From: Bacteroidales bacterium
Lineage (GTDB): Bacteria > Bacteroidota > Bacteroidia > Bacteroidales > UBA932
DNA length: 55,687 nucleotides
Direction: 5' to 3'
Assembly: GCA_017529425.1 (NCBI GenBank)
Contig: JAFXNQ010000031.1
Coordinates: forward strand, 1 to 55,687
Every line of letters starts with the position of its first letter. Position 1 is the first letter of the stretch. Shown here in pieces: positions 12,478 through 40,403 of this stretch. The notes below the pieces were generated by a model. That model saw nothing but the letters and a program-made list of their open reading frames with translations. It was not told the DNA's origin and ran no database searches. The position numbers and the translations under genes were made by a program.

Positions 12478-12747
12478 ATGAGGATAAAGGATGGTTTTGT
12501 ACTAAGGTCGATGCTCGGAGGGCATGTAGTTGTGGGTGAAGGGCTGGCGCAGGTTAATTTCAATCGCCTGCTCTCGCTCAACGCCACTGCAGCGTATCTG
12601 TGGGAGAGCGTTCAAGGTAAAGATTTCTCTACAGAGGATCTTGCAGACCTGATTGTGCAGAAATATGGGGTAGACCGCGAACTGGCCATCTCAGATTCTG
12701 AAAAAATAGCCAAGACATGGATAGAGCAGGGGGTCTTGCTCCCGTAA
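12478..12747 (+). CDS. PqqD-like (RRE-fold) small protein, paralogue 1
   Basis: 89 residues. The ATG at 12478 is chosen because it aligns with the start of the paralogue at 38827-39093 and lies just after a -7 element. The pattern is MRIKDGFVLR, GGHVVVGEGLAQVNF, LLSLNATAAYLWE, then an acidic helix and WIEQGVLL. This matches the compact winged-helix fold of PqqD and RiPP recognition elements, which bind leader peptides. About half its residues match the second copy. No radical SAM, kinase or protease gene is adjacent. Instead the large SLBB export protein begins 29 nt later. A role as regulator or chaperone of export is possible. Function unknown. Confidence 0.72.
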   Translation: MRIKDGFVLRSMLGGHVVVGEGLAQVNFNRLLSLNATAAYLWESVQGKDFSTEDLADLIVQKYGVDRELAISDSEKIAKTWIEQGVLLP

Positions 12748-12776
12748 TTAACCGTGCAAAGAAAAAAGTAAATAAT

Positions 12777-15176
12777 ATGTCCAGATTGTTAAAATTGGTT
12801 TTGCCGGCGTTGTTCATGGCAATGTTTACCACCGCCGCAATTGCTCAGGCACAGATGACCAATAATCAGATTAAGAGCTATGTGGAGGAGGGAATCGCCG
12901 CGGGTAAGGATAAAAACGTCCTGCTGGAAGAACTCGTTGCCCGTGGCGTGACAAAGGAGCAGGCGATGAAGGCTTTTTCTTCATATAGCGGGCTCAATTC
13001 CCTTGTCAATTCTCCTTCGCAGCCCCAGGTTATCATAGAGCCTAGCCGGGCTCATACCCTTAATGGTGAAGAATCGCTTGATAGTCAAATTGTTAATCGT
13101 GGTGTGGATAATAGTGAGGTGGAGGTTTATGGCCACAACATTTTCCGCAACAAGAACCTTAATTTTGCTCTCAGCGAGAACATGGCGACCCCCCGTAACT
13201 ACCGGCTCGGACCTGGGGACGAGGTGATAATTGATGTTTTCGGCCGTAACCAGACCACAATCCGTAATATCATTTCTCCTGAAGGGAGCATCAATGTGGA
13301 TGTCCTGGGACCGTTGTACCTTAGCGGAATGACCATAGAGGAGGCAAATGATTTCCTCAAGAAACGTCTTGCCCGTATTTACGGCGGCCTCAATACCCGT
13401 TCAGATACCGATATGCGTCTAAGTCTGGGCCAGATACGTTCTATCCAGGTTAATGTGGTAGGTGATGTGGCGCAGGCCGGGACATATCGCCTCTCCTCTC
13501 TCTCTACAGCAATGCATGCGCTTTACAAGGCTGGGGGAGTGGTTGAGCCCGGTACGCTGCGAAACATTAAGGTGGTCCGTGGCGACAGGGTTGTGGGGGT
13601 GATTGATGTTTACGATTTCCTGCAGAGGGGTTCCAATGCAAGCGACATCATGCTGGAGGAGGGAGATGTGGTATTGGTGTCACCTTATAGCAGCATGGTA
13701 CTGGCAGAGGGCGCTGTAAAGCGCGGTATGCGCTTTGAAATGAAGCCCGGCGAGACCGTGGCTGACCTGCTTGAGTATGCCGGCGGTTTTTCCCAGAGCG
13801 CAAATACATCCTCAGTAACCGTTTGCCGCCAGAGTGACAAGGATTATGTAATCCATACGGTTGATGCTGCAGATTACGCATCATTTACCCTTCAGAACGG
13901 AGATGAGGTCACTGTCGGTGAGTTGCAGTCCCGTTTCAGCAACCGTGTATCCGTTCAAGGGGCAGTTTTCTTCCCGGGCACCTATGAACTCGATGCGGTT
14001 AAGACGGTCAAGGGACTTGTAGAAAAGGCCGGGGGTACCCTTCCTGAGTCTTTCACAGACAGGGTCGTGATTTACCGCGAACACCCCGATATGACCCGGG
14101 AGGTGATGTCAGTGAACCTTACTGAAATCATTGCCGGAAGGCATGAAGATTTCCAGCTCCAGAACAACGATGAACTTTATATCTCCGACAGGCTGGACCA
14201 GATTACCAACAGCACGGTCAGGATCTCCGGTATGGTCAATTACCCGGGAACATACCCGTTCTCTGAGAATACCACGATAGAAGACCTTATCATTATTGCC
14301 GGCGGCCTCAAGGTGGGTGCTTCCACCTCCCGCGTAGATGTTACCCGCCGCAAAAAGGAGACGGACGGTTTGACGGCAACCAGCGATATAGGCGAGATGT
14401 ACACCTTTGCTCTCAAGGACGGCCTTGTGGCAGACGGCGACCGCAGTTTCACCCTGGAACCATACGATGAAGTGGTAGTACACCACAGCCCATCTTTTAA
14501 TATTCAACGGCGTTTTACTGTGAACGGTGAGGTGAATTTCCCCGGCGTTTACCCGTTAACTAGCCGTGAAGAGCGTATTTCCGACCTGGTTGCCAAGGCG
14601 GGGGGCCTTACTGATTTTGCATATGCCTCCGGAGCCCGTCTTATCCGTACCTTGACAAAAGAGGATCGCCGTGTGTCCAAAGATATGGAAGATATCCTGA
14701 AGAGCGAAACTGATACGACCCAGGTATTGACCAAGGATATCGAACAGACATTCTCTGTGAGTATAGATCTTGAAAAAGCGCTTTCACATCCTGGTGGAGA
14801 CGCCGATGTGGTGTTATGTGAGGGGGATGTGCTGGAGATACCGGTACGAAGTAATGTGGTCCGTATCAACGGAGCTGTAAGGTTCCAGACTGCGGTGAAC
14901 TATGACAGTTCATTCCGCGCCAGGGACTATATTGAAGCGGCGGGTGGTTACAGCCAAAATGCAAGCCGGGCAAACGCCTATGTTGTCAATATGGGCGGAC
15001 GTGCAGAGCGATTGCGCCCTGGTACCAAGATATATCCGGGTGCTGAAATATATGTTCCGGAAAAAATCCAGCAAGACAAGAAGGACTTTAACTATGCCGC
15101 CCTTATGTCTATCAGTTCGTCTACTGCATCTGTGGTTGCCATGCTTGTAACGGTAATCTCATATTTAAAGAAATAA
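12777..15176 (+). CDS. large SLBB polysaccharide export outer-membrane protein
   Basis: 799 residues. The ATG at 12777 gives a signal peptide (ALFMAMFTTAAIAQAQ); longer frames upstream run into the previous gene. An N-terminal helical pair (MTNNQIKSYVEEGIAAG..) precedes the Poly_export/Wza domain (NYRLGPGDEVIIDVFG at about 140) and then at least four SLBB repeats, each with a G..NFPGTYPL- or GAVFFPGTYEL-like core. The last ~20 residues (SVVAMLVTVISY) form one membrane helix. It should form the outer-membrane conduit for exopolysaccharide or capsule. A Wzz-like partner begins 6 nt downstream, but no glycosyltransferases, flippase or polymerase are in view. Confidence 0.88.
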   Translation: MSRLLKLVLPALFMAMFTTAAIAQAQMTNNQIKSYVEEGIAAGKDKNVLLEELVARGVTKEQAMKAFSSYSGLNSLVNSPSQPQVIIEPSRAHTLNGEESLDSQIVNRGVDNSEVEVYGHNIFRNKNLNFALSENMATPRNYRLGPGDEVIIDVFGRNQTTIRNIISPEGSINVDVLGPLYLSGMTIEEANDFLKKRLARIYGGLNTRSDTDMRLSLGQIRSIQVNVVGDVAQAGTYRLSSLSTAMHALYKAGGVVEPGTLRNIKVVRGDRVVGVIDVYDFLQRGSNASDIMLEEGDVVLVSPYSSMVLAEGAVKRGMRFEMKPGETVADLLEYAGGFSQSANTSSVTVCRQSDKDYVIHTVDAADYASFTLQNGDEVTVGELQSRFSNRVSVQGAVFFPGTYELDAVKTVKGLVEKAGGTLPESFTDRVVIYREHPDMTREVMSVNLTEIIAGRHEDFQLQNNDELYISDRLDQITNSTVRISGMVNYPGTYPFSENTTIEDLIIIAGGLKVGASTSRVDVTRRKKETDGLTATSDIGEMYTFALKDGLVADGDRSFTLEPYDEVVVHHSPSFNIQRRFTVNGEVNFPGVYPLTSREERISDLVAKAGGLTDFAYASGARLIRTLTKEDRRVSKDMEDILKSETDTTQVLTKDIEQTFSVSIDLEKALSHPGGDADVVLCEGDVLEIPVRSNVVRINGAVRFQTAVNYDSSFRARDYIEAAGGYSQNASRANAYVVNMGGRAERLRPGTKIYPGAEIYVPEKIQQDKKDFNYAALMSISSSTASVVAMLVTVISYLKK

Positions 15177-15182
15177 GCAGCT

Positions 15183-16313
15183 ATGAAAGAGTTAAAGAAT
15201 ACCCCGGCACATGCACCGGAAGAAACCGAAGAAGGCATAGACGGGATGGATATTCTGGTCAGGCTGCTAAAACACTGGAAGCAGATACTTCTGATTGTAG
15301 TGATTTTTTCCGCCGTCGGCGTAGTGGCGGCTTTAAGGATGTCACGTATCTGGAGTGTAACCGTCACCCTTGCGCCAGAAGTTCAAAGCCAGAATAGTGG
15401 AAGTCTGGCCAGCATAGCTTTAATGCGCAGGATGACCAATATGCAGATGTCAGGTTCTACTGATGCGATGGATGTGTCGTTGTTCCCGGATATTTGTGCC
15501 AGTACCCCGTTCCTGGCGTCTCTACTGGATGTCCCCCTTACATCTTATGTGTCGGATAAAGGTAAATTGGAGGGAAAGGTCCCTGTACAAACCACCGTAT
15601 ATGAGCACATGATGGGGCTGGACGGTATGAGAAAACGTCGTTTCTCTCTGAAATCCCTGATAATACCGCTTCTAAAAAAGAGGTCATACGACAGGCCCTA
15701 CACGGGTGTGGAGGACCCTACAGAGCTACCTAAAAGTGCCGCCGCTGTGGTGACTGCTTTGAAAAGATGTATCGGCGTGACTATGGACAAGACCACCTGT
15801 GTGACTACCATAAAAGTTGTGCTTGACGACCCTATGATGGCCAAACAACTCGCCGACACAGTCTGTTCCAGATTGCAGGATTATGTGAGTGAATACCGTA
15901 CCCAAAAGGCGCAGGCCGATTATGAATACTATGTGGTGCTGGCCGACGAGGCTCGCGCTGATATGGTAAAAGCACAGGCTGCCTATGCTGCATCTGTAGA
16001 TTATGACCGCAGCGTCATTATGCAGAGTGCAACTGCAGAAAAAGACCGTCTTCGCGCCGAGGCTAACCTCGCCGGGCAGATATACTCAACCATAGTACAG
16101 CAGCGTGAGCAGGCGCGGGCCAAGGTCCAGGAAGAGAGGCCTGTATATGCAGTGATACAACCTGCTGTCCTTCCTCAAAAACCCGCTAACAGCCGTAAGC
16201 GCAAGGTATTTATATGGGCATTCGCAGGTGGTTTGCTGGCGTGTGGCTGGTATGGTCTGGGAAAAGACTACTATCTCAACGTTAAAAAAGATATCAAGGA
16301 GCGGATGGCGTAA
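15183..16313 (+). CDS. Wzz-like chain-length determinant / PCP protein
   Basis: 376 residues with two membrane helices (about 34-51 and 344-361) around a large periplasmic part containing a long coiled coil (about 240-310). The end of the periplasmic part reads PVYAVIQPAVLPQKPANSRKR, a proline-rich motif typical of Wzz/PCP proteins just before the second helix. There is no C-terminal tyrosine-kinase domain. It should set polymer length and bridge to the SLBB protein encoded 6 nt upstream. Confidence 0.85.
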   Translation: MKELKNTPAHAPEETEEGIDGMDILVRLLKHWKQILLIVVIFSAVGVVAALRMSRIWSVTVTLAPEVQSQNSGSLASIALMRRMTNMQMSGSTDAMDVSLFPDICASTPFLASLLDVPLTSYVSDKGKLEGKVPVQTTVYEHMMGLDGMRKRRFSLKSLIIPLLKKRSYDRPYTGVEDPTELPKSAAAVVTALKRCIGVTMDKTTCVTTIKVVLDDPMMAKQLADTVCSRLQDYVSEYRTQKAQADYEYYVVLADEARADMVKAQAAYAASVDYDRSVIMQSATAEKDRLRAEANLAGQIYSTIVQQREQARAKVQEERPVYAVIQPAVLPQKPANSRKRKVFIWAFAGGLLACGWYGLGKDYYLNVKKDIKERMA

Positions 16314-34767: not shown

Positions 34768-36093
34768 TTACCAGCTGAAATTAAGAATCCTCGGTGTCAG
34801 GGATAACGACAGCCATGACCAGAACAGACGGCCATCTTCTGAAGCGCGTTTTAGCCGTTGCATGTTCTCTGTGCCAAACATGTATGATATTCCGCAGGAC
34901 AGGGAGGCGTATTTTGTAAATTGCCAGGATGTCTCCATTTCGAACTCGTGTCCAAGCGTGGGGCCGATATTATGAAGCTTTGCGGCGATTGCAAGGTAAT
35001 GGTAAGAGAAATCTGCGGAAAGATTCGGTATCGGTTTGATTTTTGTCCCCACAAACGCGTTTTGAAGGCCCGGTGTGAAACCGTTTACGTAGGTACTCAC
35101 ATAGAAGAAGTCCATAGCTCCGTAGAATTTGTGGTGTGAGCCGTAAATAGGATTGAAACCACGGAGTACTTCGTGGTAGGTGAGGCCGATGGCTCCGGGC
35201 TTCGGTACGGCGAACGTTTCATCGCCGCTGAGGTAGTCGTAACCAGCATAGAAGGTCCAGACAGCAGACGGGGTGAACATTGTCTTGATACTGGCCATCC
35301 ATGCATCCAGTCGTGATCCCTTTTCATCGGTGCCCATTTGTCTGTAGTAAGACCCCTCAACGTTCCATCTGGTTGGATTGAACTTCACATATCCCCCGAC
35401 GACCTGCTGCCATGCGATATGTTCATTTTCTCCCGGAGAGCCGGCCTGCATGCCTATGTTGAGCCCCAGCAGTGATACGCCAAGCGGTGCGACCGGCAGG
35501 TCATAATGATACCACAACATATGCATGGTCTTATACGGAAGGGCGCCATCTGCATAGTATGTGCTGCCGTTCATAGTGTTTTCAGCATTCTGATTGTATG
35601 CCCACACTGTATGTACCTTGTGGCCGTGTCCTTCGTATCCACCCTTGAGTACATCGTGGGTGATGCCGGCCATGGACCAGTCGTTGGGACCAAGGATACG
35701 CTCGTCGTCGTATGCCAGCACCATCCGTCCTACCTGTAAGAACAATCCGCCACGGGTGTTGAGCTTTGCCCAGGCTTCGTGGATGCCGAATGACCCCTTG
35801 CCGGCCTGCCCCCATATCCCCTGATGCTGAAAGGAGGTCTTCACCTCCAGTCCGGGCCTCTGATAGCCAATGGATATCCTCGCCCTGCCAAAGACAAAGG
35901 CGGCTTTGTCTGAATTGACGTCCTCTGCATCAGGCAGCCCGCCGTCGCGGATCTCCCCGCGGTTGAACATCTGAATATCGGCAGTCAGGTGGTTTTCAGG
36001 GACTTTCTCCTGGGCCAGGGTGGCGGGAGATATTGCGAGTGCAAACCCGACTGCGGCCAATGCTGCGGCATACACGCTGAGTATAGGTCTCAT
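34768..36093 (-). CDS. outer-membrane barrel, alginate-export-like
   Basis: 441 residues with signal peptide (ATLAQ, cleavage near 27). The sequence pattern (AFVFGRARISIGYQRPGLEVKTSFQHQG, then HEAWAKLNTRGGLFLQVGRMVLAYDDERILG) is that of the alginate-export/porin superfamily of 18-stranded barrels. It ends with NFSW, an aromatic C-terminus suitable for Bam. Located 14 nt after the ABC exporter and 13 nt before the sensor phosphatase. It could be the outer-membrane exit for what the ABC protein exports, or simply a sugar/anion porin. Assignment to barrel is firm, substrate is not. Confidence 0.75.
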   Translation of the reverse strand: MRPILSVYAAALAAVGFALAISPATLAQEKVPENHLTADIQMFNRGEIRDGGLPDAEDVNSDKAAFVFGRARISIGYQRPGLEVKTSFQHQGIWGQAGKGSFGIHEAWAKLNTRGGLFLQVGRMVLAYDDERILGPNDWSMAGITHDVLKGGYEGHGHKVHTVWAYNQNAENTMNGSTYYADGALPYKTMHMLWYHYDLPVAPLGVSLLGLNIGMQAGSPGENEHIAWQQVVGGYVKFNPTRWNVEGSYYRQMGTDEKGSRLDAWMASIKTMFTPSAVWTFYAGYDYLSGDETFAVPKPGAIGLTYHEVLRGFNPIYGSHHKFYGAMDFFYVSTYVNGFTPGLQNAFVGTKIKPIPNLSADFSYHYLAIAAKLHNIGPTLGHEFEMETSWQFTKYASLSCGISYMFGTENMQRLKRASEDGRLFWSWLSLSLTPRILNFSW

Positions 36094-36107: not shown

Positions 36108-37727
36108 CTAAAGCGAAATAACGGAGTCTGCGAACCTGATGGCAGCCTCACGGTGGGAGATAAAGATTATCGTTTTCTCTCCATGATAGCGTTCGTGGAG
36201 GTTTTTAAGCAGAGCCGACTCTGTGGCGGCGTCCAGCGCAGAGGTCGATTCGTCCAGAATCAGGACTCCGCCGGGGTGGAGCAGGGCGCGGGCAACGGCG
36301 ATACGCTGCGCCTGGCCTTCGCTCAGACCGCTTCCAATTTCTCCGCATCGGGTCTCCAGACCGTCGTGGAGGTCGTTGACAAAATTACACATGGCCAGAG
36401 AGAGAACCTCCTTAATCTGGTCTTCTGTAGCCTCCGGCGCCGCCAGCAGCAGATTGCTGCGGATAGTGCCGCTTAGCAGTGAATTTCCCTGCGGGACATA
36501 CATAAAGTTGCTGCGGATAGCGCTGCCTGCCGGATGCCCGGCAACTGTTACGCTCCCCTTGGTGGGCTCTAACAGGCCTAATATCAGATTGATAAGAGTA
36601 CTCTTGCCGATGCCGGTAGGGCCGGAGATAACTGAGAAAGTACCCCCCTCAAACCTGCATGAGAAATCTTTCAGCACAGGCCTTATTGCGCCGGGATAGG
36701 CATAAGTAAGGTTTGAGACCACGACCTCCGGTGCGCCAGGAAGGTGAATGTTTTCCCCTTGGGGCTCCTCTTCCAGTTCAGCCAGATCCATCAGCCGCTC
36801 GATAGAGGTCAGGGCACGGATAAATGCGGGAACCTGACCGCTGAGGGAGGCGATCGGACCCTGGACGCGGCCAACCAGTTGCAGGAATGCAGTCATCATA
36901 CCGTATGTCACGGTGCCGGCAGAGATGCCGAAGATTCCCCACAGGAAGGCTACGGCATGGCCAGCCTGGAATCCGAACAGCATAAAGCCGCGGGCTATAG
37001 CATTGTAGTTGAGTCTCTTACGAGTCTCGCCCTCTATGTCAGTCTGAATCCAACCGAATTTTTCGAGTACCCGTTCTACCTTTGTGAGGGTCAGAACAAG
37101 GACGCGATGCTGCAGGCTCTCCTGCATAAGCTGCTGGAGTTCACTGTCGCGGTTCCGGATGCGGGCCATTATCTCGCGCAGCTGTTTGAAGAACATCTTG
37201 GACCCGAACACTGCCGCTGCCATGAGAATCAGCAGTACCCAGAGCAGATTGGGGGCCAGTGTGAGCATATAAGCCGACGAGGCAATCAGCTGAAGTATGG
37301 TTATAAGCAGATTTGGAATATTATCCGTCAGCAGGTCGGAGGTGACCCTGATATCCTCTTCCAGACGGTTTACGGTATCGCCGGAGAGATAGCGCTCCCG
37401 GCCGGACCACCGGCTGCTGAGAACGTGACCGAAGAGCTCCTTCCTGAGAATATTCTGCGATTTGACCTTGCACCAGGCATCCCACCAGTTGTTAAAAATT
37501 GTGAGGACCAGTTGCAATACAAGTATTCCGATGAATATGGCTATACCTTGATTCAAAGAGGCATCGCTCACTTTGGTCGCGATGTCCACAAGGTGTTTGC
37601 TGGCAGCTATGAAGCCCAAAGATGCCACAATGCGGATAATGCCCGCCGCCACCTTGATCCACAAACGCCAGCGGACAGGTTTAGACATGGCCCAAAGGGT
37701 CTTCATGCATGAGGCAAAACTTCTCAT
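36108..37727 (-). CDS. ABC exporter, fused membrane and ATPase domains
   Basis: 539 residues. Six-helix type I exporter domain (about 1-320) fused to an ATPase with Walker A GPTGIGKST (near 365), signature LSEGQAQRIAVARAL (near 465) and Walker B VLILDESTSALD, plus the H-loop FISHR. No N-terminal C39 peptidase domain is present, so leader removal, if any, must come from another protein such as the neighbouring peptidase. It overlaps the nucleotidyltransferase gene by 4 nt. Context suggests export of a small modified peptide or similar product. Confidence 0.92.
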   Translation of the reverse strand: MRSFASCMKTLWAMSKPVRWRLWIKVAAGIIRIVASLGFIAASKHLVDIATKVSDASLNQGIAIFIGILVLQLVLTIFNNWWDAWCKVKSQNILRKELFGHVLSSRWSGRERYLSGDTVNRLEEDIRVTSDLLTDNIPNLLITILQLIASSAYMLTLAPNLLWVLLILMAAAVFGSKMFFKQLREIMARIRNRDSELQQLMQESLQHRVLVLTLTKVERVLEKFGWIQTDIEGETRKRLNYNAIARGFMLFGFQAGHAVAFLWGIFGISAGTVTYGMMTAFLQLVGRVQGPIASLSGQVPAFIRALTSIERLMDLAELEEEPQGENIHLPGAPEVVVSNLTYAYPGAIRPVLKDFSCRFEGGTFSVISGPTGIGKSTLINLILGLLEPTKGSVTVAGHPAGSAIRSNFMYVPQGNSLLSGTIRSNLLLAAPEATEDQIKEVLSLAMCNFVNDLHDGLETRCGEIGSGLSEGQAQRIAVARALLHPGGVLILDESTSALDAATESALLKNLHERYHGEKTIIFISHREAAIRFADSVISL

Positions 37728-38854
37728 TTATGGAATATGTCTTTAATTACTTGTACTACTCCTACGCTATAGAAATTCAAGATTTTTTTTCTCAGGAAAC
37801 GTTTCTCACCAGGATACATTCTACGCATCAAACGATATCGTTCCAATCTGGTTTTGATGGAGTACGTCTTGCTTGCAAAATAGTTTTCTGGACGATCGGT
37901 TTGCGATATATAACGGTAATGGCCAAAATTGCCCTCCAGGAAGATAGTTTCGAGCACTATTGAAGCATCCTCTTTAAAGCCTGGCTGATAAAGAGGCATC
38001 TCTTCTGCAGGCAACCCCAGAAAGTCAACGGCAATCGAGGCAAACATTGTCCATACAGTACTGAGTTGCAATGAATCCAAGACCCTCTCGAGATAGGCCT
38101 CGTCAATGTTGCCGGAGTGGGTGTGAAGAAAACGTATCCAGTCGCACATTTGCCGCAATCCAATGCCCTCAATCAAGAAGTGGCGCTGCATATGGCAAAA
38201 GATATAGAATGCATTGAAGCTGTCGGAGGGGGTGTTTACCAATACCCCCTCGAAATCAACTGGAGCAAGGTTATTGCTGAGTCCATCGTTTGCAAATGCC
38301 TGATAAATCCCGTCGGATTTACTGCTGTTCATCTTGTCGCTCACCCGATGGAGCTCAATAAGCAACTTGCCCAGAAAGATTTCATAGTGGAGGGTCGAGT
38401 CCTTGGCTTTTGCAATCTCCTCCCCGGTTGCCATCCCGTTTATTATCTCGCAGGCTCTTTCGAACTGATCGGGACCCACGTACAGGTCAATGTCGCCGCA
38501 CTCCCTCAGAAGTGGCTGAAGGTAGTTCCGGGCCACGCCTTGCCCCTTTAGCAATACAGACTCCACGCCGCCATCGCGAAGTGCGGATACCACTTTGGCT
38601 ATGCAACGGTTAAGCTGGATGTGGGTGGCGGCAGTCTTGTGCACCAGTTCCATTGGTTGCGGGTTGCCGCACTGCCACCCGGCACTGATCAGGGCCGATA
38701 TAATCATCGGCCGGGTCCGCTGCACTTTGGCTATCTTCCGGACACCGTCAAGGTCCTGAGGAAGGGTAGCCGGCGTGTCCCATAGGGCAGAACGCAGCAG
38801 ACTCAGATACTCCTCCTGAGCAGAGGTTATTCGAGCATGCCGTTCTCCTGCCAT
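37724..38854 (-). CDS. nucleotidyltransferase family protein (NTP_transf_5-like)
   Basis: 376 residues. The pol-beta-like nucleotidyltransferase signature is at about 101-126: LLKGQGVA, then PLLRECGDIDLYV with the metal-binding D-I-D pair (121-123). This uncharacterised family recurs beside PqqD-like and HPr-kinase-like genes in peptide and exopolysaccharide loci, including lasso-peptide clusters with kinase tailoring. Acceptor unknown. The start overlaps the PqqD-like gene by 28 nt and the stop overlaps the exporter by 4 nt, so it is tightly coupled to both. The N-terminal ~10 residues are uncertain. Confidence 0.85.
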   Translation of the reverse strand: MAGERHARITSAQEEYLSLLRSALWDTPATLPQDLDGVRKIAKVQRTRPMIISALISAGWQCGNPQPMELVHKTAATHIQLNRCIAKVVSALRDGGVESVLLKGQGVARNYLQPLLRECGDIDLYVGPDQFERACEIINGMATGEEIAKAKDSTLHYEIFLGKLLIELHRVSDKMNSSKSDGIYQAFANDGLSNNLAPVDFEGVLVNTPSDSFNAFYIFCHMQRHFLIEGIGLRQMCDWIRFLHTHSGNIDEAYLERVLDSLQLSTVWTMFASIAVDFLGLPAEEMPLYQPGFKEDASIVLETIFLEGNFGHYRYISQTDRPENYFASKTYSIKTRLERYRLMRRMYPGEKRFLRKKILNFYSVGVVQVIKDIFHK

Positions 38855-39093
38855 ATAATTATCATTTTCCGGACATCCTCGCGAGCCTTCTCTTCACTGA
38901 CCTCGTACTTGTCGGTTAACAAATTGGTGAGGTCATCTTCCGTGAAATCCCGTCCATTCACCTGCTCCCAGAGATAGGCGGCAGATTCATTGAGAGAGAG
39001 CATTTTGTCAAAGTTGACCAGGGCGAGGCCTTCGCCAACAACTATGTGGTTTCCGCAGATGGTGCGAAGTGTGAATCCTTCTTTAATTTTCAT
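38827..39093 (-). CDS. PqqD-like (RRE-fold) small protein, paralogue 2
   Basis: 88 residues: MKIKEGFTLR, NHIVVGEGLALVNF, MLSLNESAAYLWEQVNG, an acidic helix, and WQENGMLE. The layout is the same as paralogue 1 at 12478-12747, and about half the residues are the same. PqqD-type domains bind the leader of a precursor peptide and hand it to modifying enzymes. This copy sits between an S24/S26 peptidase (11-nt overlap) and a nucleotidyltransferase (28-nt overlap). That fits a peptide-maturation role, though no precursor is seen. Confidence 0.82.
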   Translation of the reverse strand: MKIKEGFTLRTICGNHIVVGEGLALVNFDKMLSLNESAAYLWEQVNGRDFTEDDLTNLLTDKYEVSEEKAREDVRKMIIIWQENGMLE

Positions 39094-39520
39094 ATAATAA
39101 TCTCCTTAATTGTCTAAACCGTCTGTAAAATGCAAGTAAGTATCTTCTGGCGGGTTTGAGTTTGCCCCAGATAACCCCCTTTGTTGGCTTGTGGCCGTTT
39201 ACGGTGATTACCGTGCCAAGTATGTCGCTCTTTTTGCATGGTTCTGTGCCGACCAGATTGCCATCCCCCATCAGGGTGAGTCTGTCGCCATCAACCGCAA
39301 TCACCCGGTGCAACACATAGCGTGTGTCGGGAAGATGCGCCAGCACAATGTCTCCAACCTCTATCTCCGGCAGCTTGCGGAGCGTTACACTGTCTTTGCC
39401 TCCAATAATGAATGGCAGCATACTGTTCCCCAGCGGTGTAAGCTGTACGTCGCGCCCTTCTTGCAGCAAGGTTCCTACCTCTGCCAGCATTATCTCGTTG
39501 GGGATGACCTTTTTATCCAT
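39083..39520 (-). CDS. S24/S26 peptidase with Ser-His dyad (SipW/Sec11-like), no obvious membrane anchor
   Basis: 145 residues from the ATG at 39520; a longer frame would extend back inside the kinase gene. The nucleophile box is LGNSMLPFI (Ser33) and the second box YVLHRVIAVDGD (His71), followed by LMGDGN. A His in the HRV box in place of Lys is the mark of ER/archaeal/SipW signal peptidases. The usual N-terminal membrane helix is missing, so the protein may act in the cytoplasm or at the membrane face through its basic C-terminal helix. Probably cleaves a substrate peptide handled by the PqqD-like neighbour. Confidence 0.82.
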   Translation of the reverse strand: MDKKVIPNEIMLAEVGTLLQEGRDVQLTPLGNSMLPFIIGGKDSVTLRKLPEIEVGDIVLAHLPDTRYVLHRVIAVDGDRLTLMGDGNLVGTEPCKKSDILGTVITVNGHKPTKGVIWGKLKPARRYLLAFYRRFRQLRRLLYEN

Positions 39521-40379
39521 GGATTGTCTTGAATGAGAGTTGGGCGGCTGCCTCGTCGGGCAGGCATTCCAGATGATAGAACGCCGTGCCGGAGGCAAGG
39601 ATCTCCATAGTGCTATGCCAGCCGTCGGCAAGTTTCTTGAGCGGGCGGAACGACGATGCGGAGCCCATAAGCGTTGCGTATGCCTGGATGGGATTAAGCC
39701 TGCGGATGCTGTTGTGTGGCGCCTGGCTCAACTGCACTATTGCGCCGATAGGAGCATCCATAGCCTTATAGCAAGGGGTCTTGCCGCTCCACGGACTGCC
39801 GTACACGCGGGCTATGCCGTCATCTCCGACCCGGATGACAGGGTTGTCGTCGTTGAGCAGGACGCTGCCGGGTATATGGTTGAGCCACAAGCGGGTGTGT
39901 GTGCTCTTGCCGGTGCCGCTCTTGCCCAGGAACATGTAACCTTTGCCGTCATTCACTATTACGGAGGAGTGCATCTCCAGCGTATTCTTGCAGGCTGATG
40001 AGAAGGCGAAAAGGAACATCAGGGAGTTGTCAATCGCAAAGCGGTCCTGAGTAGACTTGAGTTCCATCCTGGCTCTTGTGAAATCGGAATCCACCTGCAT
40101 TTCGCCCGCAACGGGCTTGCCGGGGAGGGGTTGTGTCTCTATGCGGTAATATCCATCTTCCGTGGTGTAAATGGCAATTACCGGAAAACCCGGTTCATCG
40201 GGGGTTTTGTAAAGCAGAGTGCGCGGAACCTCGGGCAGTTCAGAAACCACCTCAAGAGAAAACAAGATGTCACCATCGGCCTCCTGCACCCTGAAAGGTT
40301 GCAGGTTAGACGGCTCGTTTGGGATGCCTTCTGTGGTAAAAAAGAAGTCCGCTACTCGATATGTCCTCAGGTCAGCCAT
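39513..40379 (-). CDS. HPr-kinase-like serine kinase
   Basis: 288 residues. The C-terminal half has the HPrK core: H-S-S-V-I-V (137-142), Walker A LGKSGTGKST (151-160) and the following LLNDDNPVIR (175-183), where HPrK has its acidic pair. The N-terminal ~110 residues are unique to this branch, and no PTS HPr gene is visible. Related kinases phosphorylate the C-terminal residue of some lasso peptides (paeninodin type) and occur in HprK-related/PqqD systems. It is the first gene of the reverse run and has its own promoter. The substrate is unknown; a peptide is the best guess. Confidence 0.85.
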   Translation of the reverse strand: MADLRTYRVADFFFTTEGIPNEPSNLQPFRVQEADGDILFSLEVVSELPEVPRTLLYKTPDEPGFPVIAIYTTEDGYYRIETQPLPGKPVAGEMQVDSDFTRARMELKSTQDRFAIDNSLMFLFAFSSACKNTLEMHSSVIVNDGKGYMFLGKSGTGKSTHTRLWLNHIPGSVLLNDDNPVIRVGDDGIARVYGSPWSGKTPCYKAMDAPIGAIVQLSQAPHNSIRRLNPIQAYATLMGSASSFRPLKKLADGWHSTMEILASGTAFYHLECLPDEAAAQLSFKTIHG

Positions 40380-40395
40380 ATAATCTTATAATCTA

Positions 40396-40403
40396 CAAAT
40401 ATA
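40396..40403 (-). promoter_or_regulatory. -7 element at the head of the 13-gene reverse run
   Basis: The minus strand reads TATATTTG, a full -7 match, 16 nt before the kinase ATG at 40379. It lies in the 35-nt gap after the prolyl oligopeptidase stop. No clear -33 TTTG is present because that position falls in the end of the upstream gene. Confidence 0.6.

Follow-up and report, generated by a model that had tools for sequence, protein, structure and literature searches.

We analyzed a five-gene cassette in a Bacteroidales bacterium of the UBA932 lineage (GenBank assembly GCA_017529425.1, contig JAFXNQ010000031.1; the whole stretch of 55,687 nt is called the window below). On the minus strand, the cassette encodes, in order, an HprK-like kinase, a soluble Ser-His peptidase of the S24/S26 type, a PqqD-type recognition element (RRE) for ribosomally synthesized and post-translationally modified peptides (RiPPs), an NTP_transf_5 nucleotidyltransferase and an ATP-binding cassette (ABC) exporter without a C39 domain. 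We consider it likely that this set is the maturation and export module of a RiPP pathway in Bacteroidota that resembles the linear polyphosphorylated peptide (LPP) pathway and serves precursors encoded in trans. At the sequence level, this reading builds on the parts of the set and their conserved motifs, the co-occurrence of the set with a family of small peptides, the pairing of these peptides with lipoproteins, and coding selection on the peptides. The initial annotation of the window had described the cassette as a tailoring and export system for a peptide encoded elsewhere; its observations were confirmed, and its interpretation was partly supported.

The LPP pathway was published in May 2026 by Popov et al. 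for Bacillota (PMC13381572). Its core consists of an SpI peptidase, a discrete RRE, an HprK-like kinase, an NTP transferase and an MsbA-like transporter, with no cyclase. According to mass spectrometry, the kinase adds several phosphates to Ser3 of the core peptide. The SpI-like peptidase cleaves the leader in an RRE-assisted manner and does so poorly when the precursor carries no phosphate. The RRE binds a YxxP motif through an Asn and an Asp (LppB N33 to the Pro, D70 to the Tyr), and the peptidase LppS requires S29, H68 and D93. The authors state that LPPs are restricted to Bacillota, that their role is unknown and that the final product is unidentified; the main text contains neither "Bacteroid-" nor "lipoprotein". 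Our literature search, which covered the main texts of openly accessible papers, found no description of the Bacteroidota system, and the text of a Bacteroidales RiPP survey by BAGEL4 (PMC10352776) contains none of the terms S24, S26 or nucleotidyltransferase.

The peptide family emerged when small open reading frames (ORFs) around homologous sets were clustered without reference to a leader motif. The largest cluster, from six loci, consisted of Y-x-x-P peptides with an acidic tail; smaller clusters looked like a helix-turn-helix gene and antisense frames. A profile trained on YxxP peptides, with a subsequent extension, identified 13 peptides in the genome of the window at E ≤ 0.001 and 14 at E ≤ 0.01. 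No YxxP precursor was found among the window ORFs with this profile. The initial annotation was right that the window has no visible precursor, but the rest of the genome has precursor-like genes: in place of the single peptide that it had envisaged as encoded elsewhere there are 13, and 12 of them precede a lipoprotein gene. When the whole genome was searched, a single match fell in the window (E 0.45), and by eye it is no YxxP peptide; a loose regular-expression scan of the window returned only ORFs resembling chance or antisense frames, and a match on another contig (C58, L092) was dropped because it looks like a zinc-ribbon protein.

The precursor-like peptides comprise ~34–63 amino acids (aa). 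Their leader reads YxxPx[IV]E[VI], their tail is acidic, and in most of them a Ser stands 19–20 residues past the Tyr. Peptide statistics were derived from 57 distinct peptides out of 85 matches in the fetched loci (E ≤ 0.01, none dropped), including rows used to build the profile. YxxP was present in 57 of 57, the profile having been trained on YxxP peptides. Of these peptides, 31 have Ile or Val at Tyr+5, 32 have Glu at +6 and 43 have Val or Ile at +7, and all 57 carry Ile, Phe, Val or Leu at Tyr+16. A hydrophobic-x-small-[S/T] pattern places the Ser/Thr at Tyr+19 in 34 peptides and at +20 in 13. The mean net acidity of the tails is 4.3, with one non-acidic tail, and 39 peptides have an aromatic residue within the last three positions. 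In eight own-versus-sister peptide pairs, picked by eye for likeness and with one peptide reused, the ratio of nonsynonymous to synonymous change (dN/dS) was 0.09–0.49 (pooled pS 0.44, pN 0.13), which indicates that the peptides evolve as proteins under protein-level constraint. Peptide genes adjoin the set in several loci, with one or two in some relatives.

A conserved small gene co-occurring with the set had been fixed beforehand as a test, and we found such a gene both within the family (149 genomes) and within the phylum (394 genomes). In the family sample, peptide and peptidase occurred together in 51 genomes, the peptidase alone in 7, the peptide alone in 6, and neither in 85 (Fisher 2.7e-25, which ignores shared ancestry, in a table that includes genomes used for the profile). 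The genera carrying the peptide are the genera carrying the peptidase, the same 12 of 25. The peptidase cut-off of E ≤ 1e-15 was chosen after inspection of the list and drops eight weaker genomes (seven of genus g6, and G026); at E ≤ 1e-5, the corresponding counts are 52, 14, 5 and 78. In the phylum sample, the peptide was found in four genomes (E ≤ 0.001) and the peptidase in five (E ≤ 1e-15), with all four among the five (Fisher 5.1e-9). Without the window's own genome, this test is independent of the genomes and rows that built the profile and gives 4.0e-7. The three other peptide-positive genomes come from two other families. Eight of the nine new matches were read, and each of the eight shows Y-x-x-P, acidic residues in its tail and an aromatic residue there; in one cross-family genome, the peptide sits between kinase and peptidase. 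In G539, the fifth peptidase-positive genome, the profile did not find a peptide.

The set itself recurs in related Bacteroidales, which had been proposed as a check. A peptidase homologue is present in 59 of the 149 family genomes. Longer stretches were fetched for 37 of the 58 other peptidase-bearing genomes, giving 38 loci with the window, and the core four genes (kinase, peptidase, PqqD, ABC) lie within 7 kb in 30 of them. A scan of named genomes returned at least 593 kinase relatives, of which the best 80 loci were analyzed. There, the core four lie within 6 kb in 56 loci, and counts within 6 kb of the kinase were 75 for the peptidase, 75 for PqqD, 59 for the ABC protein, 13 for NTP_transf_5 and 11 for the peptide. 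Among these 80, 79 are titled Bacteroidia, Bacteroidales or lower Bacteroidota and one only "bacterium P3"; they include many rumen metagenome-assembled genomes and the named strain Segatella baroniae B14. The locus of this strain (L166) contains kinase, peptidase, PqqD and NTP_transf_5, and no peptide of the YxxP family was found in it. Near this cassette (L166:13865-14077), a 70 aa Cys-containing ORF with an ILGG motif adjoins a 436 aa ORF and looks like a different peptide system. NTP_transf_5 is an inconstant member, present in 12 of the 30 core-complete family loci. Because it occurs in a minority of loci, nucleotidylation as the main change, one of two modifications suggested by the initial annotation, became less likely. 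Phosphorylation, the other, is a putative main change predicted from homology to LPP.

The assignments of the five genes, their order and their overlapping ends hold. Each gene starts with ATG, and neighbouring genes overlap by 8, 11, 28 and 4 nt, within the 4–28 nt claimed initially; a longer, TTG-started S24/S26 ORF (to 39631) is unlikely, as its overlap with the kinase gene would reach 119 nt. Pfam matches identify PqqD (59.8 bits, cut-off 23.4), NTP_transf_5 (109.9 bits, cut-off 31.2) and the ABC protein (ABC_membrane and ABC_tran, with no C39 family among the 12 listed). The window kinase is weak on single-sequence models, with PEPCK_ATP below and HprK_rel_A far below the cut-off. When the kinase alignment (53 rows including the window) was compared at E ≤ 0.01, 42 rows matched HprK_rel_A, 16 HPr(Ser) kinase and 6 Pfam Hpr_kinase_C. 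Below the curated NCBIfam cut-offs, SynChlorMet ScmC matched 51 rows, compared with the 42 of HprK_rel_A and 17 of HprK_rel_B; the window kinase reaches none of these three cut-offs. Its AlphaFold2 model (pLDDT 95.4) matches PEPCK structures and then HPr kinase, at modest TM-scores.

The Peptidase_S24 match of the window peptidase sits at the Pfam cut-off. The closest structures to its model (pLDDT 93.4) include LexA/UmuD as well as type I signal peptidases, among them SipA and SpsB. All 26 aligned peptidase rows, the window among them, have Ser33, His71 and Asp86; a second Asp, Asp99, is present in 18. By hydropathy, the four window proteins other than the ABC exporter have no segment that would span a membrane, as the initial annotation had stated for the peptidase; the threshold was passed by 1 of 53 rows. 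Searches of PDB sequences with the single kinase, the single peptidase and the kinase profile gave no strong match, and the PqqD profile found the lasso RRE TfuB1 at E 4.6e-7, with LppB not found. A PHROGs search gave no match.

The set shares with LPP clusters the SpI-like Ser-His-Asp peptidase, the discrete Tyr-type RRE, the HprK-like kinase, the NTP transferase (present in the window) and the MsbA-like exporter without a peptidase domain. No macrolactam cyclase accompanies the set, and no B2 peptidase was found in the 92% complete genome. Asn35 and Asp73 of the RRE correspond, by spacing only, to LppB N33 and D70, and the counterpart of LppS D93 may be Asp86 or Asp99. Both peptide types have a YxxP leader and a Ser shortly past the cut, which is a predicted one here, the phospho-Ser of LPP lying at Tyr+18 as counted from residue numbers. 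In contrast to LPP clusters, which have one to three in-cluster precursors in Bacillota, the precursors here are often in trans, many per genome and paired with lipoprotein genes, with none in the window and 13 elsewhere in its genome. The hosts differ as well, given the Bacteroidota titles of 79 of the 80 best named loci, and the NTP transferase is often missing from the Bacteroidota sets.

Several points weigh against an LPP-like pathway. Of the LPP leader consensus YxxPxVLxHQxIxFETxxS, the peptides here for the most part have YxxPx[IV] and the Ser further on, but HQxIxFET is absent. Lasso and pyrroloquinoline quinone RREs likewise rely on YxxP and on the Asn/Asp pair, which therefore do not single out LPP by themselves. 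The Ser/Thr pattern lies elsewhere than at +19/+20, or is absent, in 10 of the 57 peptides, and the register of the predicted cut is ambiguous: two residues before the Ser, as in LPP, or directly before it, following a -3/-1 pattern. Moreover, peptide and peptidase part company in the six family genomes with a peptide match only and the seven with a peptidase only, and at the relaxed peptidase cut-off of E ≤ 1e-5 seven genomes of one genus become peptidase only through partial matches.

The RRE binding, phosphorylation, cleavage and glycosylation that we propose extrapolate from LPP and lasso work. A precursor of ~34–63 aa would dock lengthwise on PqqD through its YxxPx[IV]E[VI] leader, and the HprK-like kinase would phosphorylate the conserved Ser 19–20 residues past the Tyr. 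Where present, NTP_transf_5 may add a group, probably a hexose, onto the phosphate. The model for this optional step is PsmN. Annotated as a nucleotidyltransferase and partnered with an HprK-like kinase, it reportedly adds a hexose to the phospho-Ser of pseudomycoidin (PMC9266682); its substrate is a lasso peptide and its host a Bacillus. The soluble Ser-His peptidase, assisted by PqqD, would remove the leader beside that Ser (hydrophobic-x-small-Ser), and the MsbA-type ABC protein would carry the linear, acidic core out into the periplasm, which could bring it together with the lipoprotein whose gene comes next.

In the window's own genome, a lipoprotein-type gene directly follows 12 of the 13 peptides, and in the sister species 11 of 13 peptides precede one. 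For a test across loci, we required more than 500 bases downstream of a peptide (E ≤ 0.01) and an ORF at -90 to +160 nt, with lipoprotein-type calls made by a regular expression in place of a trained predictor. Of 53 testable peptides, 45 had a lipoprotein-type ORF next, 6 had no such ORF, and 2 had another kind; the rate beside other genes of the same loci was 100 of 1365 (Fisher 1.3e-39). Among the eight cross-family peptides that were read, a lipoprotein is next in five by regular expression and in a sixth by eye. In several loci, peptide and lipoprotein flank or directly follow the set. Nine of the 12 own-genome partner lipoproteins were scanned, and all nine gave Pfam matches, some below cut-off, including fimbrillin-like Mfa_like_1, Lcl_C, Fib_succ_major, Ig-like Big_2 and BspA-type leucine-rich repeats, domains that occur in surface adhesins. 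For lipoproteins of relatives, 4 of 10 gave Pfam matches at E ≤ 0.01. On one contig of the own genome (C36, L098:492-16598), several peptide-lipoprotein pairs lie in both orientations, with near-identical peptides before diverged fimbrillin-like proteins, and these pairs look as if they had been duplicated as units.

The pairing suggests that a peptide might act together with its own lipoprotein, which is pure inference. A bolder version is possible, although we hold it only tentatively: one cassette would yield a repertoire of linear phospho- or glycophospho-peptides, each dedicated to one surface adhesin or fimbrillin-like lipoprotein that it caps, licenses or tunes, in a peptide-adhesin code.

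Among the alternatives, the one that survives best, while still improbable, accepts the peptides as substrates but holds that the set mainly cuts and exports them; the kinase would only license cleavage, and the phosphate would be removed or irrelevant in the product. The poor cutting of the unphosphorylated LPP precursor and the final product left unidentified by the authors (PMC13381572) fit this scenario. However, the conserved Ser lies on the predicted product side of the cut, and the hexose reportedly placed by PsmN on a phosphorylated Ser (PMC9266682) likewise speaks against it.

It is less probable that the set modifies an exopolysaccharide or its carrier, with kinase and nucleotidyltransferase acting on a sugar and PqqD being a leftover or scaffold. 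A second PqqD, the only other PF05402 match in the genome, is immediately followed by two genes that by eye are Wza-like (12717-15176) and Wzz-like (15183-16313); no second kinase homologue was found in the genome and no peptide beside that PqqD, and repeats near it look chance-level. On contig C23 of the same genome, four NTP_transf_5 matches (L039, L078-L080) stand among sugar/glycosyltransferase-like genes, by eye, which points to a polysaccharide role for some members of that family. Two sets of the same genus adjoin UpxY- and Wza- or Wzc-like genes, also by eye, and LPP clusters of Bacillota occur in capsule loci as well (PMC13381572). On the other hand, several of the 12 mapped loci by eye have unrelated surroundings, for example ribosomal-protein or MetK-like genes. 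It is not obvious what a leader-type peptidase and an RRE would do on a sugar, and the YxxP family tracks the peptidase phylum-wide.

Slightly less credible still is a regulatory reading, in which the small genes would be leader ORFs controlling the lipoprotein genes and not substrates, and would co-occur with the set through similar lifestyles. The position of 45 of 53 peptides directly upstream of lipoprotein-type genes would suit such leaders, but the shared motif is the one bound by RREs and is kept across families while the tails vary, peptide dN/dS is well below 1, and no peptide was found in the 389 peptidase-less genomes of the phylum sample, although 6 of 91 such genomes in the family sample have a peptide match. 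A lasso-peptide pathway with its cyclase encoded elsewhere is largely refuted and very improbable: paeninodin-type clusters share the HprK-like kinase, the PqqD-type B1, the NTP transferase and the [Y/W]xxP leader, but their RREs have Gly where those here have Asn (by spacing), no B2 peptidase was found in the 92% complete genome (best PF13471 match E 0.28, below cut-off), and of three Asn_synthase matches the first, which has a glutaminase domain, is AsnB, the second by eye resembles MnmA, and the sole cyclase-like candidate (G000:C34:18316-19353, L217; 346 aa, no glutaminase domain) is present in 2 of 149 family genomes (own and sister G102), compared with 58 for the peptidase. The initial annotation's view that cyclisation is not the main change is supported, with no cyclase tracking the set.

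Coordinates of the cassette genes and further features are given in Table 1. The candidate promoter element TATATTTG resembles the Bacteroidota -7 element TAnnTTTG. Flanking genes were rejected as parts of the cassette: among the loci compared, the upstream prolyl-oligopeptidase was found in no locus but those of the window and its sister species (L041), and the downstream outer-membrane and SpoIIE-like genes only in the window. The outer-membrane-type gene (34768-36093, minus strand; weak Alginate_exp match) starts 14 nt past the exporter, and no homologue was found in the other loci compared. In the sister species, a second NTP_transf_5 gene (L041:6954-8099) lies immediately before the kinase; the window has none there.

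Table 1 Features of the cassette and related elements in the window
Feature	Position	Strand	Remarks
HprK/PEPCK-superfamily kinase (LppK-like)	39513..40379	-	288 aa; P-loop GKSGTGKSTH, NDDNP and GSPWSGKTPCY nearly invariant among relatives
Soluble S24/S26 Ser-His(-Asp) leader-peptidase candidate (LppS-like)	39083..39520	-	145 aa; without membrane anchor; basic C-terminal helix
PqqD-type discrete RRE (LppB-like)	38827..39093	-	88 aa; Asn35 and Asp73 invariant in 23/23 rows
NTP_transf_5 (PF14907), LppN/PsmN-like by position in the set	37724..38854	-	376 aa; variable set member
MsbA-type ABC exporter (LppD-like)	36108..37727	-	539 aa; no C39 peptidase domain
TATATTTG, candidate promoter element	40396..40403	-	16 nt from the kinase ATG
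Second PqqD/RRE	12478..12747	+	53% identity with the cassette PqqD; precedes the Wza- and Wzz-like genes

Overall, an LPP-like module serving trans-encoded precursors would bring a second phylum, one common in gut and rumen, into a RiPP class that was described only recently, and it would illustrate that a maturation set can be detached from its precursors. For a set without a visible product, it provides 13 concrete substrate candidates in one genome. The peptide-lipoprotein pairing additionally offers a testable idea on the role of these peptides, which the LPP authors describe as unknown (PMC13381572). If true, the peptide-adhesin code would be the first role assigned to LPP-type peptides.

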